A stretch of 64,000 bases of DNA. It comes from Polynucleobacter necessarius. Its GTDB lineage: Bacteria > Pseudomonadota > Gammaproteobacteria > Burkholderiales > Burkholderiaceae. The stretch covers positions 1,732,309 to 1,796,308 of the forward strand of contig LT606947.1 of NCBI GenBank assembly GCA_900095165.1, written 5' to 3'. Position numbers and translations under genes: made by a program. Shown here in pieces: positions 15,707-23,222 of this stretch (positions are counted from its first letter, which is position 1; each line of letters starts with the position of its first letter). The notes beneath the pieces are model-generated. The model was not told the DNA's origin. It worked only from the letters and a program-made list of their open reading frames with translations, and did no database searches.

Positions 15707-18673
15707 ATGACATATGCCAATCCCCAGACAGCAGGACAGACTGCCGGCGCTAATAATCCAGGAATGAATCCTTCCGAAGCCATGAATCAAGCCGCATCGG
15801 CTGGCTTTGTAGCTGGTGGAGTTGGTGGCGGCCAGGCTACCCAATTGTCCGATTACAAAATCATTCGCCGCAATGGTTCGGTGGTGGCATTTGAGCCATC
15901 CAAAATTGCCATTGCAGTTACCAAAGCATTCTTGGCGGTTAATGGTGGTCAGAGTGCGGTTTCTGCACGCGTTCGCGAACAAGTAGAGCAATTAACTCAC
16001 TCAGTAGTGCGCGCCTTGTTGCGTAGTCGCCCAAATGGCGGCACTTTCCATATTGAGGATATTCAAGATCAGGTTGAGGTGGCATTGATGCGTAGTGGTG
16101 AGCACAACGTTGCTCGTGCCTATGTTCTTTATCGTGAAAAACGTAATCAAGAGCGTGCAACACAACAAGGCATTACTCAAGAGACTCAAGCCGCAACCCA
16201 AGCTGGTGAGTCTGGCATCAAGGTAACTGACAACGGTGTAGAGAGGTGGTTGGATATGGCTGCCTTGCGCATCATTATTGAGGCCGCATGTGAAGGTCTC
16301 GGCAATAACATTGATGCAAGTCCAATCATCACTGAAACCATCAAGAATTTATATGATGGCGTGCCAATGGCTCAGGTGTACGACTCTGCAATTTTGGCCT
16401 CACGTACTTTGATTGAAAAAGATCCCGCTTATAGTCAAGTAACTGCACGCATCTTGATGCATATGATTCGTAAAGAAATTTTAGGTCGCGAAGTACTACA
16501 GAGTGATATGCAAGCTGAGTACAGCACTTACTTCGTCAAGTACATCAACGAAGGTATTTCTGCTGAGTTGTTAGATCCACGTATGCGTGAGTTTGATCTC
16601 CCGCGCTTGGCTGCCGCTTTGAACGCCAGCCGCGACTTGCAATTTAACTACCTCGGTTTGCAAACTTTGTATGACCGTTATTTCTTGCACATTGAAGATC
16701 GTCGCATTGAGATGCCACAAGCCTTCTTTATGCGCGTTGCAATGGGCTTATCTTTGAATGAGTTAGATCGTGAGCGTCGTGCAATTGAGTTCTATGAAAT
16801 CCTATCTACATTTGATTTCATGTCCAGCACACCAACCCTGTTTAACTCAGCGACAACACGCCCACAGTTATCAAGCTGCTACTTAACAACTGTGGATGAT
16901 GATCTTGACGGCATCTATGAAGCGTTAAAAGAGAATGCACTCTTATCTAAGTTTGCCGGCGGTTTAGGTAATGACTGGACTAACGTTCGCGCCTTGGGAA
17001 GTCACATCAAAGGCACTAATGGCAAGTCACAAGGTGTGGTGCCTTTCTTAAAGGTGGTGAACGATACAGCGGTTGCTGTGAATCAAGGCGGTAAGCGTAA
17101 AGGTGCAGTTTGTGCGTACTTAGAAACATGGCACTTGGATATTGAAGAGTTTCTCGAGTTACGCAAAAACACGGGTGATGATCGTCGCCGTACGCACGAC
17201 ATGAATACATCTAACTGGATTCCAGATTTGTTCATGAAGCGCGTGATGGAAGGTGGTGAGTGGACATTATTCTCCCCTTCAAATACACCTGACTTGCATG
17301 ACAAATTCGGTAAGGCTTTTGAAGAGGCGTATGTTGCCTATGAGAAAAAAGCGGATGCTGGTGAGCTGAAGCCATTCCGTCGTATTCCTGCACAACAATT
17401 GTGGCGCAAGATGTTGGGTATGTTGTTTGAAACTGGCCACCCATGGATCACATTTAAAGATCCTTGCAATATTCGCAGCCCACAACAACACATCGGTGTA
17501 GTTCACTCTTCTAACTTGTGTACTGAAATTACCCTGAACACAAACGAAAGTGAAATCGCAGTATGTAACTTAGGTTCTGTGAACTTGACAGCGCATATGA
17601 CTACAGATGCGTCCGGCAAGATGATTTTGGATCACGAGAAGCTCCAGAAAACAATTCGCACTGCAATGCGTATGTTGGACAACGTGATTGATATCAACTA
17701 CTACGCTGTTGCTAAAGCGCGTAACTCAAATTTGAAGCATCGTCCAGTTGGTATGGGTATCATGGGCTTCCAAGATTGCTTGCATATGCAACGCATTCCT
17801 TACGCTAGCGATGAGGCAATGAAGTTTGCGGATTCATCTATGGAAGCAGTGTGCTACTACGCTTACCAAGCATCTAACGAATTGGCTGAAGAGCGTGGTG
17901 TTTACAGTACATATAAGGGCTCTTTGTGGGCCTGCGGCATTCTTCCGCAGGACTCAGTAGCCTTGTTGGCAGCAGAGCGTGGTGGTTACCTTGAAGTAGA
18001 TGGCTCTTCCACTATGAATTGGGATGGCTTGCGTGCTCGCATCAAGCAGCACGGTATGCGCAACTCTAACTGTGTGGCAATTGCACCGACTGCAACGATT
18101 TCGAACATCGTTGGTGTTTCGGCTTGTATCGAGCCTACATTCCAGAATTTGTTCGTGAAATCTAACCTCTCAGGTGAATTCACCATGGTTAACGAGTACC
18201 TGGTGCGTGATTTGAAAGATCGCGGCCTTTGGGATGAAGTCATGATTGCTGACTTGAAGTACTTTGACGGCACTTTGTCTAAAATTGATCGTGTTCCACA
18301 GGATTTGCGTGATTTGTATGCTACTGCATTTGAAGTAGAGCCAAGCTGGTTGGTTGAAGCTGCCTCGCGTCGTCAGAAGTGGATTGACCAGGCACAGTCA
18401 CTCAACATCTACATGGGTGGTGCATCAGGCAAGAAATTGGATGACACATACAAATTGGCTTGGTTGCGCGGTCTAAAAACTACGTACTACCTCCGCACAA
18501 TGGCTGCAACGCACGTTGAGAAATCTACTGTTACAAGCGGTCAGCTAAATGCTGTGTCTAGTGGCGGCGGCGTGAATGGAGCTGATGCTGCAGCTGCACA
18601 AGAAGCGGATGGTCCAGTTTGCACAATGCGCCCAGGTGATGCTGGTTTTGAAGAATGTGAAGCATGTCAGTAA
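15707..18673 (+). CDS. nrdA: Ribonucleoside-diphosphate reductase, class Ia alpha subunit
   Basis: 988 residues; reduces ribonucleotides to deoxyribonucleotides with NrdB. A low-complexity Ala/Gly/Gln N-terminus (1-45) precedes an ATP-cone allosteric domain (from IIRRNGSVVAFEPSKIAIAV to about 145). The catalytic barrel has LSSCYLTTVDD (redox Cys), NLCTEITLNT (radical-site Asn-Cys-Glu) and NLGSVNL, then ATISNIVGVSACIEPTFQN. The C-terminal FEECEACQ carries the redox Cys pair that receives electrons from thioredoxin or glutaredoxin. Start ATG 15707 has an AGCAGGA site. nrdB follows after 45 bp. Confidence 0.97.
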   Translation: MTYANPQTAGQTAGANNPGMNPSEAMNQAASAGFVAGGVGGGQATQLSDYKIIRRNGSVVAFEPSKIAIAVTKAFLAVNGGQSAVSARVREQVEQLTHSVVRALLRSRPNGGTFHIEDIQDQVEVALMRSGEHNVARAYVLYREKRNQERATQQGITQETQAATQAGESGIKVTDNGVERWLDMAALRIIIEAACEGLGNNIDASPIITETIKNLYDGVPMAQVYDSAILASRTLIEKDPAYSQVTARILMHMIRKEILGREVLQSDMQAEYSTYFVKYINEGISAELLDPRMREFDLPRLAAALNASRDLQFNYLGLQTLYDRYFLHIEDRRIEMPQAFFMRVAMGLSLNELDRERRAIEFYEILSTFDFMSSTPTLFNSATTRPQLSSCYLTTVDDDLDGIYEALKENALLSKFAGGLGNDWTNVRALGSHIKGTNGKSQGVVPFLKVVNDTAVAVNQGGKRKGAVCAYLETWHLDIEEFLELRKNTGDDRRRTHDMNTSNWIPDLFMKRVMEGGEWTLFSPSNTPDLHDKFGKAFEEAYVAYEKKADAGELKPFRRIPAQQLWRKMLGMLFETGHPWITFKDPCNIRSPQQHIGVVHSSNLCTEITLNTNESEIAVCNLGSVNLTAHMTTDASGKMILDHEKLQKTIRTAMRMLDNVIDINYYAVAKARNSNLKHRPVGMGIMGFQDCLHMQRIPYASDEAMKFADSSMEAVCYYAYQASNELAEERGVYSTYKGSLWACGILPQDSVALLAAERGGYLEVDGSSTMNWDGLRARIKQHGMRNSNCVAIAPTATISNIVGVSACIEPTFQNLFVKSNLSGEFTMVNEYLVRDLKDRGLWDEVMIADLKYFDGTLSKIDRVPQDLRDLYATAFEVEPSWLVEAASRRQKWIDQAQSLNIYMGGASGKKLDDTYKLAWLRGLKTTYYLRTMAATHVEKSTVTSGQLNAVSSGGGVNGADAAAAQEADGPVCTMRPGDAGFEECEACQ

Positions 18674-18718
18674 GCTATTTGCTAGCTGATCCAGAAAAAT
18701 AAGAATTAGGAGAGATTT

Positions 18719-19912
18719 ATGTTGAATTGGGAAGAAGAAGTTGCCCCAGCACTAGCGAAAGCTGGTCTGGCACCGCAACCAGTAGCAGCGGAAACCCAGC
18801 GTCCGCAACCAGATCAAGTTGCAATTGCCGCCCCTCAAAATGTTGCACCTGCACCTGCACCTGTGCAAGCTGTTTCATTGGCTGGTGGCGCAGCATTGCG
18901 TGTCAATGCTGCCGATAAGCGCGTGATTAATGCCAAGACTGACGTAAACCAGTTGGTTCCATTTAAATATAAGTGGGCTTGGAAGAAATATTTGGCTGGT
19001 TGTGCAAACCATTGGATGCCGCAAGAGATCAATATGAATCGCGATATCGCGCTTTGGAAAGATCCTAATGGCTTAACTGAAGATGAGCGTCGCATCATTA
19101 AGCGCAATCTCGGTTTCTTCACAACGGCAGATTCTTTGGCGGCAAACAACATTGTTTTGGGCACTTATCGTCATATTACCGCCCCAGAATGCCGTCAATA
19201 TCTATTGCGCCAGGCATTTGAAGAAGCAATTCATACTCACGCGTACCAATATATTGTGGAATCTTTGGGCTTAGACCAGAGCGAAATCTTTAATGCTTAT
19301 AACGAAATCGAGTCAATTCGCGCTAAAGATGAATTCTTAATTCCTTATATTGATGTGTTGACTAACCCAAATTTCAAAACTGGGACATTGGAAGCTGACC
19401 AAACATTGCTGCGATCATTGATCGTTTTTGCTTGCGTGATGGAAGGTTTGTTCTTTTATGTTGGTTTTACGCAAATACTTGCAATGGGTCGTCAAAACAA
19501 AATGACGGGTGCTGCTGAGCAGTATCAATACATCCTGCGCGATGAGTCTATGCACTGCAATTTTGGTATTGATTTAATTAATCAAATCAAGCTGGAGAAC
19601 CCGCAGTTATGGACTTCTGCGTTCAAAGACGAGGTCAAATCTATCTTCAAAAAAGCGGTTGAATTAGAGTACTGTTATGCAGAGGATACGATGCCTCGCG
19701 GAGTGCTCGGATTGAACGCGCCGATGTTCAAAGAGTACCTAAGATACATCTGTAATCGCAGATGTTTGCAAATAGGACTTGACGCAATGTTCCCAAATGA
19801 AGAGAATCCATTCCCATGGATGTCAGAAATGATTGATCTGAAAAAAGAGAGAAACTTTTTTGAGACACGCGTTATTGAGTATCAAACTGGCGGTGCGCTA
19901 AGTTGGGAATAA
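18719..19912 (+). CDS. nrdB: Ribonucleoside-diphosphate reductase, class Ia beta subunit
   Basis: 397 residues; carries the diiron-tyrosyl radical cofactor for NrdA. Residues 1-70 are Ala/Pro/Gln-rich linker-like sequence, not part of the catalytic fold. The ferritin-like domain follows with ligands in [28 protein letters not shown] (Glu and His plus the radical Tyr region) and [18 protein letters not shown] (Glu and His). The C-terminal tail ends TGGALSWE, acidic/aromatic as needed for docking on NrdA. AGGAGA upstream of ATG 18719. Shares the NrdR-controlled transcript with nrdA. Confidence 0.97.
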
Positions 19913-20245
19913 GTAGTTAATTAAAAAGCGCATGGCCGGCTAAATAGGAGATTAGACGGTTGGATAGTTTTAAAAGTCAGCAAAACCAGACTCAAATCCG
20001 AAAACCCTTATTCAATGGTATCTGGGCTATTCTCTCTATTTTTTCCAACAAATTTAAGAAGCCGTTGTCCTTTGGGGCCACGGCTTTTTTTCAGGATTCA
20101 TTAGCGTGCAGCACTTAGCATCAAGCCGCGCGCCGATGAATGGCTCGCTCGTCGGCTCCAATCGGTTGCAAAACCAGGCGGAAATGAATGGTCGGGTCTT
20201 CTTAATCGGTAGTTTGTACTAATCCTCACGTGAAGGAGCATTGCT
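19913..20245. other. Intergenic stretch between nrdB and the histone-like gene
   Basis: 333 bp with a terminator (20060-20091) and no recognised gene. A 52-codon open frame starts at TTG 19960, 9 bases after an AGGAG, and runs to TAG 20118; it crosses the terminator and its product resembles nothing I know, so it is not called. The last 150 bp should contain the promoter of the histone-like gene; a ribosome site (AAGGAG, near 20233) lies before its ATG. Confidence 0.6.
20060..20091 (+). terminator. Probable terminator of nrdAB
   Basis: Six-bp stem AGCCGT/ACGGCT (20060-20065, 20080-20085) around a 14-base loop that can pair further internally (GGCC-type), followed by a run of seven T. It lies 147 bp after the nrdB stop. 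Confidence 0.7.
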
Positions 20246-20455
20246 ATGGCAATCGCCAAGAAAAAAGTTGCTGCAAAGAAACCAGCTGCAAAGAAAAAAG
20301 TAGCTGCTAAAAAAGTAGCTCGTAAAGTAGCTGCTAAAAAAGTAGCTCGTAAAGTAGCTGCTAAGAAGCCTGCTGCTAAAAAAGTAGCTCGTAAAGTAGC
20401 TGCTAAGAAGCCTGCTGCTAAAAAAGTAGCTCGTAAAGTAGCAAAAAAAAAGTAA
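20246..20455 (+). CDS. Histone H1-like Lys/Ala-rich DNA-binding protein, shortened by a frameshift
   Basis: 69 residues, nearly all Lys, Ala, Val, Arg and Pro (MAIAKKKVAAKKPAAKKK and repeats of KVARKVAAKKPAAK). Proteins of this kind (histone H1-like, common in Burkholderiales) coat DNA non-specifically through their basic tails. The frame ends at TAA 20453-20455 directly after an A9 tract (20443-20451). With ten A the frame would run on through a further 41 codons ending in the conserved-looking tail LNPAAAWPFPTGTRP (stop 20575-20577). The basic part is intact, so the short form may still bind DNA. Confidence 0.82.
   Translation: MAIAKKKVAAKKPAAKKKVAAKKVARKVAAKKVARKVAAKKPAAKKVARKVAAKKPAAKKVARKVAKKK
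20315..20442 (+). repeat. Tandem repeat inside the histone-like gene
   Basis: The unit beginning GTAGCTCGTAAAGTAGCTGC recurs at 20315, 20342, 20384 and 20426, i.e. with periods of 27, 42 and 42 bp, all multiples of three. The copies are nearly identical at DNA level, so repeat number could change easily and vary the length of the basic tail. Confidence 0.85.
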
Positions 20456-20577
20456 GTAAGCCTGCTGCGAAGAAAGCGGGCAAAGCTGTAAAAAAGCCCG
20501 TGGCTAAAAAAACTGCCGCTTCAACAACGTTGAATCCTGCTGCTGCTTGGCCCTTCCCAACTGGCACACGCCCATAA
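20456..20577 (+). pseudogene. Displaced C-terminal part of the histone H1-like gene
   Basis: Read one frame away from the upstream gene, this stretch encodes KPAAKKAGKAVKKPVAKKTA followed by the tail LNPAAAWPFPTGTRP and TAA. The same composition and direct continuity show it belonged to the histone-like protein. It would be translated only if one base is gained in the A9 tract, for example by polymerase slippage. Confidence 0.8.
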
Positions 20578-21674: not shown

Positions 21675-23222
21675 CTATTTTTCATGGTAAAAAATTCTGA
21701 CGCGATAGCCGGCAGCATTTTGTGGGAGGGAAATTGGCAAAGCGGACGAAAATATTTCACCGGAAGGAGCGCCATGACGCAAAAAATCCGGATGCGACTC
21801 TTGCCAAGCGGTTGGTAACCACTCTTGTGGTGAAAATTGAATCGTTTTAATCCCCGATTCCTCTGCATCAGTAAGAGAAATTTCTAAATTTGTGAATAAA
21901 ACCGGCATTGCAAGACGATTTTGTATTTCGACTTGCAGCACTGATTGATTTGAAGCGTTTTTAAGGCTCTCTCGCGCATTTTCAGGTGAAATGGTAACCG
22001 AAGTTATTTTCCAAGCAGCAAAATCGCTTACAGAGCGATTTACGCACCCTAGTGCACGACACAATTGCTCATCAAACTTCTGTAAAAGAGAAAAGCTACT
22101 TGTTGCAATCGCAGAAGAGCTGCCATCCACACGTGTTGCTAGTGTTGGCAGTAGAGAGTTTCTAAAAAGATGCTCGCCAAAAATAATGAGCAAGAGGAAA
22201 AAAGCACTAAAAAGGATTAATTTAGGACTTTTTTTTTGAGCCGGCACCGAAGTGTCTATGTTTTTGGCGTTCACGCTCGCTTTGTAAGCTTGTTCAGGTA
22301 GCGTGCCGTGCAAACAGACCCAGCCTTCACTTTCTTTCCAAACGGAAAGAGTTAGCCACTGACTATAAGTTGCAATAACTTCCTCTGCTTGGCGAGCAAG
22401 AACGCCTGAGAGAACAATTTCCCCCCCTGGGCGCATCTTATTTACCAATGCAGGCGCTAAAACTTGTAGTGGATTAGCCAAAATGTTGGCCATCACGATG
22501 TCGTATTTAGTTTCTGCGGCGAGTTCTGGCGCATTTTCGTTGGGCAGAACAAAGCTAATGATCGTATGGTTGATTTCTGCATTGCTGCGAGCTGCAACCA
22601 TGGCTTGTGGATCGATATCAGTACCTACAACTGGTTTACACCCCAGTTTCGCAGCGGCAATAGCTAGAATTCCAGATCCACAACCGTAATCGAGCAAACT
22701 TTGATTCGAAAGATGTGTATTTTGTTCGAGCCAAAGTAAGCAAAGGTGCGTAGTGGGGTGGCTGCCAGTGCCAAATGCCAAACCCGGATCTGCCGCTAAG
22801 CAAATTGCATTCGGGTCAGTGGGCGCTTCATGCCAAGAAGGTACTACCCAAATACGCTCACCAATTTGAATTGGGGCGAATTGACTTTGCGTTAGGCGAA
22901 CCCAGTCTTGTTCTTCGACAATCTTTTCTTGCGGGGCTGGAAGATTGAATCCCGCTTCTTTGAGTGAGGCGAGTAGTTCATGGATGAAGTTCACCGCATC
23001 CGAATCATCAATCTCTGGATTAAAGAGCGCAGTTACCGAAGAACGATCCCAGGCCTGCACTTCAGGTGAGAGTCCTGGCTCGCCATAAAGTGGGTTTTCA
23101 TCGTAACCACCTGCAGCATCATCTTCAACAGTGACGGAGAGTGCGCCCACTTCCAGTAGGACATCACCCAAAGGCTCTGCGATCTCTGCTGGGACCGTGA
23201 AAACAAGTTCACGATAGGACAT
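21675..23222 (-). CDS. prmA: Ribosomal protein L11 methyltransferase PrmA fused to a DUF3426 membrane protein
   Basis: 515 residues in one frame. Residues 1-306 are a full PrmA, which trimethylates ribosomal protein L11: N-terminal L11-binding domain (MSYRELVFTVPAE...), GTGSHPTTHLCL at 151-162, SAM motif DYGCGSG at 178-184, NILANPL at 246-252, end of fold at GWVCLHG near 306. A linker (307-334), a membrane segment (LILFSAFFLLLIIFG, 335-349) and a DUF3426-type domain follow (WKITSVTISPE, LQVEIQNRLAMPVLFTNLEISLTD, QEWLP). In other betaproteobacteria a separate gene after prmA encodes a zinc ribbon, a membrane segment and DUF3426; here the prmA stop and the zinc ribbon are missing, which suggests an in-frame deletion joined the two. 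Confidence 0.88.
   Translation of the reverse strand: MSYRELVFTVPAEIAEPLGDVLLEVGALSVTVEDDAAGGYDENPLYGEPGLSPEVQAWDRSSVTALFNPEIDDSDAVNFIHELLASLKEAGFNLPAPQEKIVEEQDWVRLTQSQFAPIQIGERIWVVPSWHEAPTDPNAICLAADPGLAFGTGSHPTTHLCLLWLEQNTHLSNQSLLDYGCGSGILAIAAAKLGCKPVVGTDIDPQAMVAARSNAEINHTIISFVLPNENAPELAAETKYDIVMANILANPLQVLAPALVNKMRPGGEIVLSGVLARQAEEVIATYSQWLTLSVWKESEGWVCLHGTLPEQAYKASVNAKNIDTSVPAQKKSPKLILFSAFFLLLIIFGEHLFRNSLLPTLATRVDGSSSAIATSSFSLLQKFDEQLCRALGCVNRSVSDFAAWKITSVTISPENARESLKNASNQSVLQVEIQNRLAMPVLFTNLEISLTDAEESGIKTIQFSPQEWLPTAWQESHPDFLRHGAPSGEIFSSALPISLPQNAAGYRVRIFYHEK

Follow-up and report, generated by a model that had tools for sequence, protein, structure and literature searches.

A gene for a histone H1-like protein in Polynucleobacter necessarius is split by a frame break. 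Judged from its layout and its retention across the genus, this break represents a programmed frame transition that has been conserved in the gene of a nucleoid protein. Most of the related species examined retain the split, and the histone is therefore very probably produced in two versions, one short and one tailed. As the means of crossing the break we favor, with moderate confidence, a programmed -1 ribosomal frameshift in the H1-like histone gene. What the sequences show directly is the layout, the fact that it is conserved, and that the tail is coding in the -1 frame.

The histone gene and its frame break

The window, i.e., the entire 64,000-nucleotide stretch of DNA analyzed, belongs to a genome of 1,893,413 bases that occupies one contig and is 99.99% complete. 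A comparison with insect endosymbionts, drawn in the first-pass annotation of this DNA, does not fit a genome of this completeness and size (1.89 Mb), nor a layout that is kept across the genus. The histone gene sits downstream of nrdA and nrdB (15707-19912), which were named by reading their ORFs; named relatives of nrdB, at 92-94% identity, are from Polynucleobacter. A putative Shine-Dalgarno-like element, GAAGGAGC (20232-20239, + strand), lies ahead of the histone's ATG, with AAGGAG preceding this start codon at 20246. The 0-frame ORF (20246-20455, + strand) encodes the short form, a K/A-rich, H1-like histone of 69 aa (7.3 kDa, pI 12) in which 27 of 69 codons specify lysine. It closes with GCA AAA AAA AAG TAA, and the protein ends in KKK.

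As expected of H1-like histones, a Lys/Ala repeat body and an AAAWPFPTG tail adjoining nrdB are present. Profile searches covered the short form and G104, a relative in which body and tail share one frame. The short form matched Pfam HC2 (PF07382) at 25.3 bits (E = 1.8e-5; below the curated cut-off of 40) and NCBIfam NF038053 (hist_H1_lk_Burk, a histone H1-like DNA-binding protein) at 21.3 bits (E = 2.6e-4; below the cut-off of 80). G104 reached 70.9 bits against NF038053 (E = 1.6e-19; cut-off 80), matching to the last position, 195, and 35.7 bits against PF07382, i.e., close to the cut-off of 40 and under it. Near-identical 42-bp repeats, suggested earlier as a means of varying protein length, proved to be real: a tandem array of 2.7 copies with 100% matches spans 20330-20442 (+ strand), and the 0-frame protein ranges from 49 to 122 aa over 106 genomes of the genus, with repeat number varying its length.

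The first-pass annotation had also placed the gene off-frame at a run of nine A, and the sequence bears this out. The run (20443-20451, + strand) is followed by a single G and, at 20453-20455, by the 0-frame TAA, whereas the tail lies in the -1 frame. Read in the 0 frame, this segment holds two overlapping, in-phase -1 heptamers, A_AAA_AAA (20443-20449) and A_AAA_AAG (20446-20452), the stop falling directly after the second. Another TAA at 20457-20459 closes the third frame, so that the two stops together form TAANTAA, where N is G, C or T. The tail, VSKPAAKKAGKAVKKPVAKKTAASTTLNPAAAWPFPTGTRP (20452-20577, + strand, with its stop at 20575-20577), was recognized by translation and conservation; it contains the conserved motif LNPAAAWPFPTGTRP and meets no stop until 20577. 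Fusion to the body gives a long form of 110 aa with a computed mass of 11.4 kDa. Re-reading base 20452 yields the same protein as a tenth A would. Since a ribosomal -1 shift and an A10 transcript both lead to an identical long protein with a KKK-V junction, protein mass, which had been proposed as a check, cannot separate the two mechanisms.

Distribution and history of the break

The genus sample comprised 151 genomes drawn from a larger group. The WPFPTG tail pattern matched 140 of these, and two others, G017 and G119, were added by inspection, giving 142 genomes that were read; the nine genomes in which no locus was recovered are 56-85% complete. In 112 of the 142, a run of A8, A9 or A10 is followed by G, a 0-frame TAA and the tail in the -1 frame, a recurrence by which chance is rejected. 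Indeed, the expectation in the earlier annotation that both short and long proteins are made is strengthened by this recurrence, the frame being very likely crossed. An ATGGC start could be traced for the 0-frame ORF in 106 of the 112, the other six having no start in the DNA examined. Because the 112 were chosen by pattern (A6 or more, GTAA, N, TAA), counts of heptamer and stop within them are true by construction; five genomes with a site (G129, G103, G106, G011 and G084) were set aside before the 112 were reached, and G017 was counted apart. A pattern-free recount of 141 loci found 10 with no start in the DNA examined, 22 in frame and 109 with body and tail in different frames. Of these 109, two need another shift and 107 need -1, and AAAAAAG precedes the 0-frame stop in all 107, as AAAAAAG-TAANTAA in 105 and as AAAAAAG-TAG in two (G139 and G068).

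Among the 112, the run is A9 in 106, A8 in five and A10 in one, differences that arise from substitutions in the preceding codon and leave frame and phase unchanged. The W, P, F, P and T of the tail are invariant as amino acids in 112 of 112, and the minor fraction, averaged over the last 15 columns of the tail, is 0.008 at the first codon position, 0.004 at the second and 0.171 at the third. These comparisons point clearly to purifying selection on the tail in its -1 frame. Fourfold-codon diversity in 93 genomes was 0.12 near the site (10 columns), as against 0.32 in the tail (9 columns) and 0.28 in nrdB (28 columns), a comparison of few columns from related sequences in which a quarter of the nrdB columns were equally low.

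The remaining 30 genomes include 22 that are in frame, among them G106 (A7, reached by a deletion that places it in frame), G011 (one extra base) and G029 (module absent). G129 and G103 have A8 through deletion at the slip site, and a -1 shift would not rescue them; the shortened runs of G129, G103 and G106 are either homopolymer read errors or real variants. G084 carries a second indel within its tail, and in G110 and G003 the tail frame is open up to the contig edge. The breaks in G139 and G068 look more like upstream indels. In G068, translation passes in frame through A10, and the repeat letters AAAAAAGTAGC beyond it then yield A_AAA_AAG TAG with the tail in -1; this was dropped as an independent slip site, the same letters being the common repeat read one frame off after A10, and G068 may represent an indel, a read error or a shifted slip site. 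G017 reads AGA AAA AAG TAA, a run of only A6 that keeps the exact heptamer; TAANTAA is lost there, and both the 0-frame gene and the tail are open. Its genome has a 1.55-Mb contig, and its histone is diverged, with K to E changes and a WPSPTG tail. From its size alone G017 is possibly an endosymbiont lineage, and its tail may indicate relaxed selection.

Of 64 loci beside nrdB, mostly from other Burkholderiales, 53 have the tail in one open frame of at least 100 codons; in the other 11, no tail was found by pattern. Considering that the tail is kept in the -1 frame here and mostly fused to the body in other Burkholderiales, it is old and presumably functional, and the break is derived relative to other genera. 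When 398 genomes of the family were scanned for the same break with a gapped pattern, the 25 matches all belonged to this genus; many members that carry the break were also missed, which makes this a weak negative for other genera. We compared the distribution of the break with nrdB trees, one of 77 rows, in which break-carrying rows more than 97% identical had been thinned from 94 to 44, and a second of 128 rows made with FastTree. In the 77-row tree, a deep branch (support 100/100) sets off a basal group, to which G141, G006 and G032 belong, and the break occurs on both sides of this branch. The remaining genomes, whose internal branching is mostly open, contain two in-frame clades (of 8 and 10 genomes), and the in-frame G116 is basal; six changes are needed on the nrdB tree to account for the broken and in-frame states. 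The letters AAAAAAAAAGTAAGTAAGCC occur on both sides of the deep branch. Since shared letters thus surround the site on either side, one old origin followed by several later closures seems preferable to the alternative of two origins.

Mechanism of the frame transition

In the ribosomal frameshift that we favor, most ribosomes would stop at the TAA (20453) and release the 69-aa protein, tail-less and purely basic. A fraction would slip back one base with tRNA-Lys(UUU) on AAA AAG (20447-20452), or perhaps one codon earlier on A_AAA_AAA, and would continue in -1 to give the 110-aa protein with its ancestral C-terminal motif. Slipping would be made more frequent by the immediately following stop codon and perhaps by an RNA stem further downstream, and the purpose would be to set the ratio of tailed to tail-less histone. 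The ribosome as slipping machine, this ratio and a role for the tail are what we infer. The ribosome is favored by the A_AAA_AAG heptamer, the adjoining stop, the presence of a single tRNA-Lys gene (UUU) among the 37 tRNAs of the window genome, and the heptamer of G017, kept with only A6. In E. coli, according to sections of PMC4066793 and PMC5009743, few motifs for a ribosomal -1 shift are stronger than A_AAA_AAG, which is very shift-prone with one tRNA for AAA and AAG. However, Lys-Lys-Val is frequently encoded in this gene as AAA AAA GTA, which becomes A_AAA_AAG TA when the frame is displaced by one; since such codons give both heptamer and stop, these two features are not independent evidence for the ribosome.

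An upstream Shine-Dalgarno stimulator was sought and rejected, no SD-like element being found 6-17 nt upstream of the slip site in any of the 112 genomes. Downstream, folding suggested a candidate hairpin (stem 1; 20460-20481, + strand) of 7 bp with an 8-nt loop, beginning 7 nt after the heptamer, and a distal stem, GCGGGC/GCCCGT (stem 2; 20476-20501, + strand), that would compete with it. The 68 nt after the heptamer folded with a z of -2.71 relative to dinucleotide shuffles. In 53 distinct sequences, which are related and not independent, the fold was better than the mean of same-peptide shuffles in 48 with genomic codon use (mean z -1.2; p <= 0.05 in 12), in 50 with the gene's own codon use (p <= 0.05 in 11) and in 40 when a sequence's own codons were permuted (mean z -0.42; p <= 0.05 in two). 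Stem 1 was fully paired in 71 of the 87 equal-spaced genomes among the 112, and its changes mostly break pairs; stem 2 retained all six pairs in 82 of the 87, with one change on both sides (G019). Given the moderate shuffle values, a stem 1 without paired changes and a competing stem 2, the case for a single clear downstream hairpin as stimulator, or for the stems in that role at all, is suggestive only. Codon choice in this region is peculiar: over the 80 codons upstream, alanine is encoded by GCG in 11 of 3181 cases, but at column 10 in 91 of 91; proline is encoded by CCC in none of 798 cases upstream but in 97 of 110 at column 17. The in-frame relative G104 also has CCC GCG, so this choice is not specific to the shift.

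Programmed transcriptional slippage, in which RNA polymerase would add one A at the A9 run and the A10 mRNA would encode the same 110-aa protein, had been put forward in the first-pass annotation. We retain it as a live rival, possible although considerably less probable than the ribosomal shift: the kept A9 speaks for it, and the A_AAA_AAG-TAA arrangement together with the A6 of G017 removes it from the lead. The ninth A falls outside the minimal heptamer and is nevertheless kept in 107 of the 112 through three different preceding codons (GCA, GTA and GAA), as would fit selection on run length; where alanine precedes the run, its codon is GCA in 92 of 97 cases, whereas further upstream GCA makes up 95 of the 1131 alanine codons that precede Lys. 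Passages of PMC5009743 describe nine A as a classic slippage run and slippage on nine A or T as efficient in bacteria. Slippage could also, by loss of one A, still rescue the A8 of G129 and G103, it would agree with TAANTAA closing both other frames, and the heptamer would be automatic from the codons AAA AAA GTA. In contrast, G017 has only A6 and five genomes have A8 through GCT, and slippage gives no role to the stop directly after AAG or to the downstream stems. The ninth A does not decide between the mechanisms, since it also completes the upstream in-phase heptamer A_AAA_AAA.

Elsewhere in coding sequence, runs of at least eight A are avoided, which speaks for slippage. A9 is not rare as such in the window (two seen, 4.0 expected in shuffled DNA). 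In ORFs of at least 120 aa sampled from the window genome (735 kb of 864 kb), A9 or longer was seen once where synonymous-codon shuffling gave about 10; A8 was seen 11 times (22 expected), and T8 was strongly avoided (three seen, 26 expected). The A_AAA_AAG phase was only mildly avoided (27 seen, 38 expected; z -1.7), a point against the ribosomal reading, and AAAAAAG in the AAA_AAA_G phase was over-represented (115 seen, 79 expected). The only run of at least nine A inside the sampled ORFs lies at 22229-22237 (- strand), within a 515-aa ORF (21675-23222, - strand) that joins PrmA to DUF3426; a comparable stretch in six relatives has AQKK or PQKK where the two parts meet. At the window genome's own dnaX locus, no AAAAAAG occurs on the gene's strand.

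It is conceivable, although we consider it improbable, that the frameshift is a regulated sensor and does not set a fixed ratio. The many lysines of the body depend on a single tRNA-Lys, and tandem Lys codons at the end of the body form the slip site. Low levels of charged tRNA-Lys or slow ribosomes would then cause more slipping and shift the nucleoid protein from the tail-less toward the tailed form, with the tail (AAAWPFPTG) as a handle through which a partner protein or turnover would exert regulation. If true, recoding would tie the chromatin state of a freshwater bacterium to the status of lysine or of translation. Also improbable is a mixed output in which A9 slips during transcription and the heptamer during translation; the ninth A and the heptamer are indeed both kept, but simpler models suffice. 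That the gene is broken or misassembled, with the tail no longer made, is very unlikely. G106, G011 and G029 are in frame unlike their close kin, and these, with the two A8 deletions, indicate that the site mutates or is misread at times. Nevertheless, sequencing error or decay was ruled out by the sharing of the break among 112 of 142 genomes, and a dead tail would not remain intact across the genus with changes almost only at third positions. Least probable of all is reinitiation, with the tail as a separate small protein started inside the gene: TTG or GTG codons occur in the tail frame of 89 of the 112 genomes, but the other 23 have no ATG, GTG or TTG anywhere in that frame, which rules out a separate ORF, and the tail belongs to one long open frame in most of the nrdB-side loci described above.

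Relation to known recoding systems and histones

Well-supported frameshift sites in ordinary bacterial chromosomal genes are few. One survey (PMC4066793) arrived at 56 candidate clusters of non-mobile genes in which a heptamer is conserved, and synonymous change was reduced in only two of them. Full-text literature searches on frameshifting in histone or H1-like genes and in Polynucleobacter, largely of non-subscription articles, turned up no title or abstract opening that describes this case; PMC9227772 concerns chlD, and the main text of a second survey (PMC3711429) contains neither 'histone' nor 'Polynucleobacter'. As far as these searches go, the kind of event is known and a histone is new as its subject. 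Our results also suggest that many Polynucleobacter genomes have this histone truncated, or labeled as broken, by automatic annotation.

In E. coli dnaX, a Shine-Dalgarno stimulator lies upstream of the frameshift site, and the histone site differs in having no such stimulator in 112 of 112 genomes. The two are alike in A_AAA_AAG, one tRNA-Lys and two C-terminal forms, as dnaX (tau/gamma) is described in parts of PMC5009743 and PMC3711429. The dnaX shift gives the shorter protein (PMC3711429, in part), whereas here the shifted product is predicted to be longer. In comparison with insertion sequences, the histone is a chromosomal gene beside nrdAB; we noticed no transposase among the neighboring ORFs listed, and the evidence for structure is weaker. 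In insertion sequences that use A_AAA_AAG, the shift extends the 0-frame product. Clusters of these elements combine A_AAA_AAG with downstream structure, according to sections of PMC4066793.

Among histones, the in-frame members of NF038053 are of the same family and occupy the same place after nrdB; in these, the tail is read with the body, whereas in the present gene the frame break separates the two. To our knowledge, Chlamydia Hc2 (HctB) lacks a WPFPTG tail. Like the protein described here, which matches Pfam HC2, it has Lys-rich repeats whose number varies protein length, and the opening of the abstract of PMC2848022, from which this is taken, mentions no frame break.

Thermus thermophilus dnaX shares with the histone gene a run of nine, a conserved gene and short and long forms, as set out in portions of PMC5009743 and PMC3711429. 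In Thermus, however, slippage is proven, while the run in Polynucleobacter terminates in a -1 heptamer, which G017 retains at A6. Combining an A9 run with the phased heptamer of dnaX, the histone site offers a clean case in which to tell transcriptional from ribosomal slipping, and its natural variants (A6, A8, A10 and closed frames) provide a ready experimental set.
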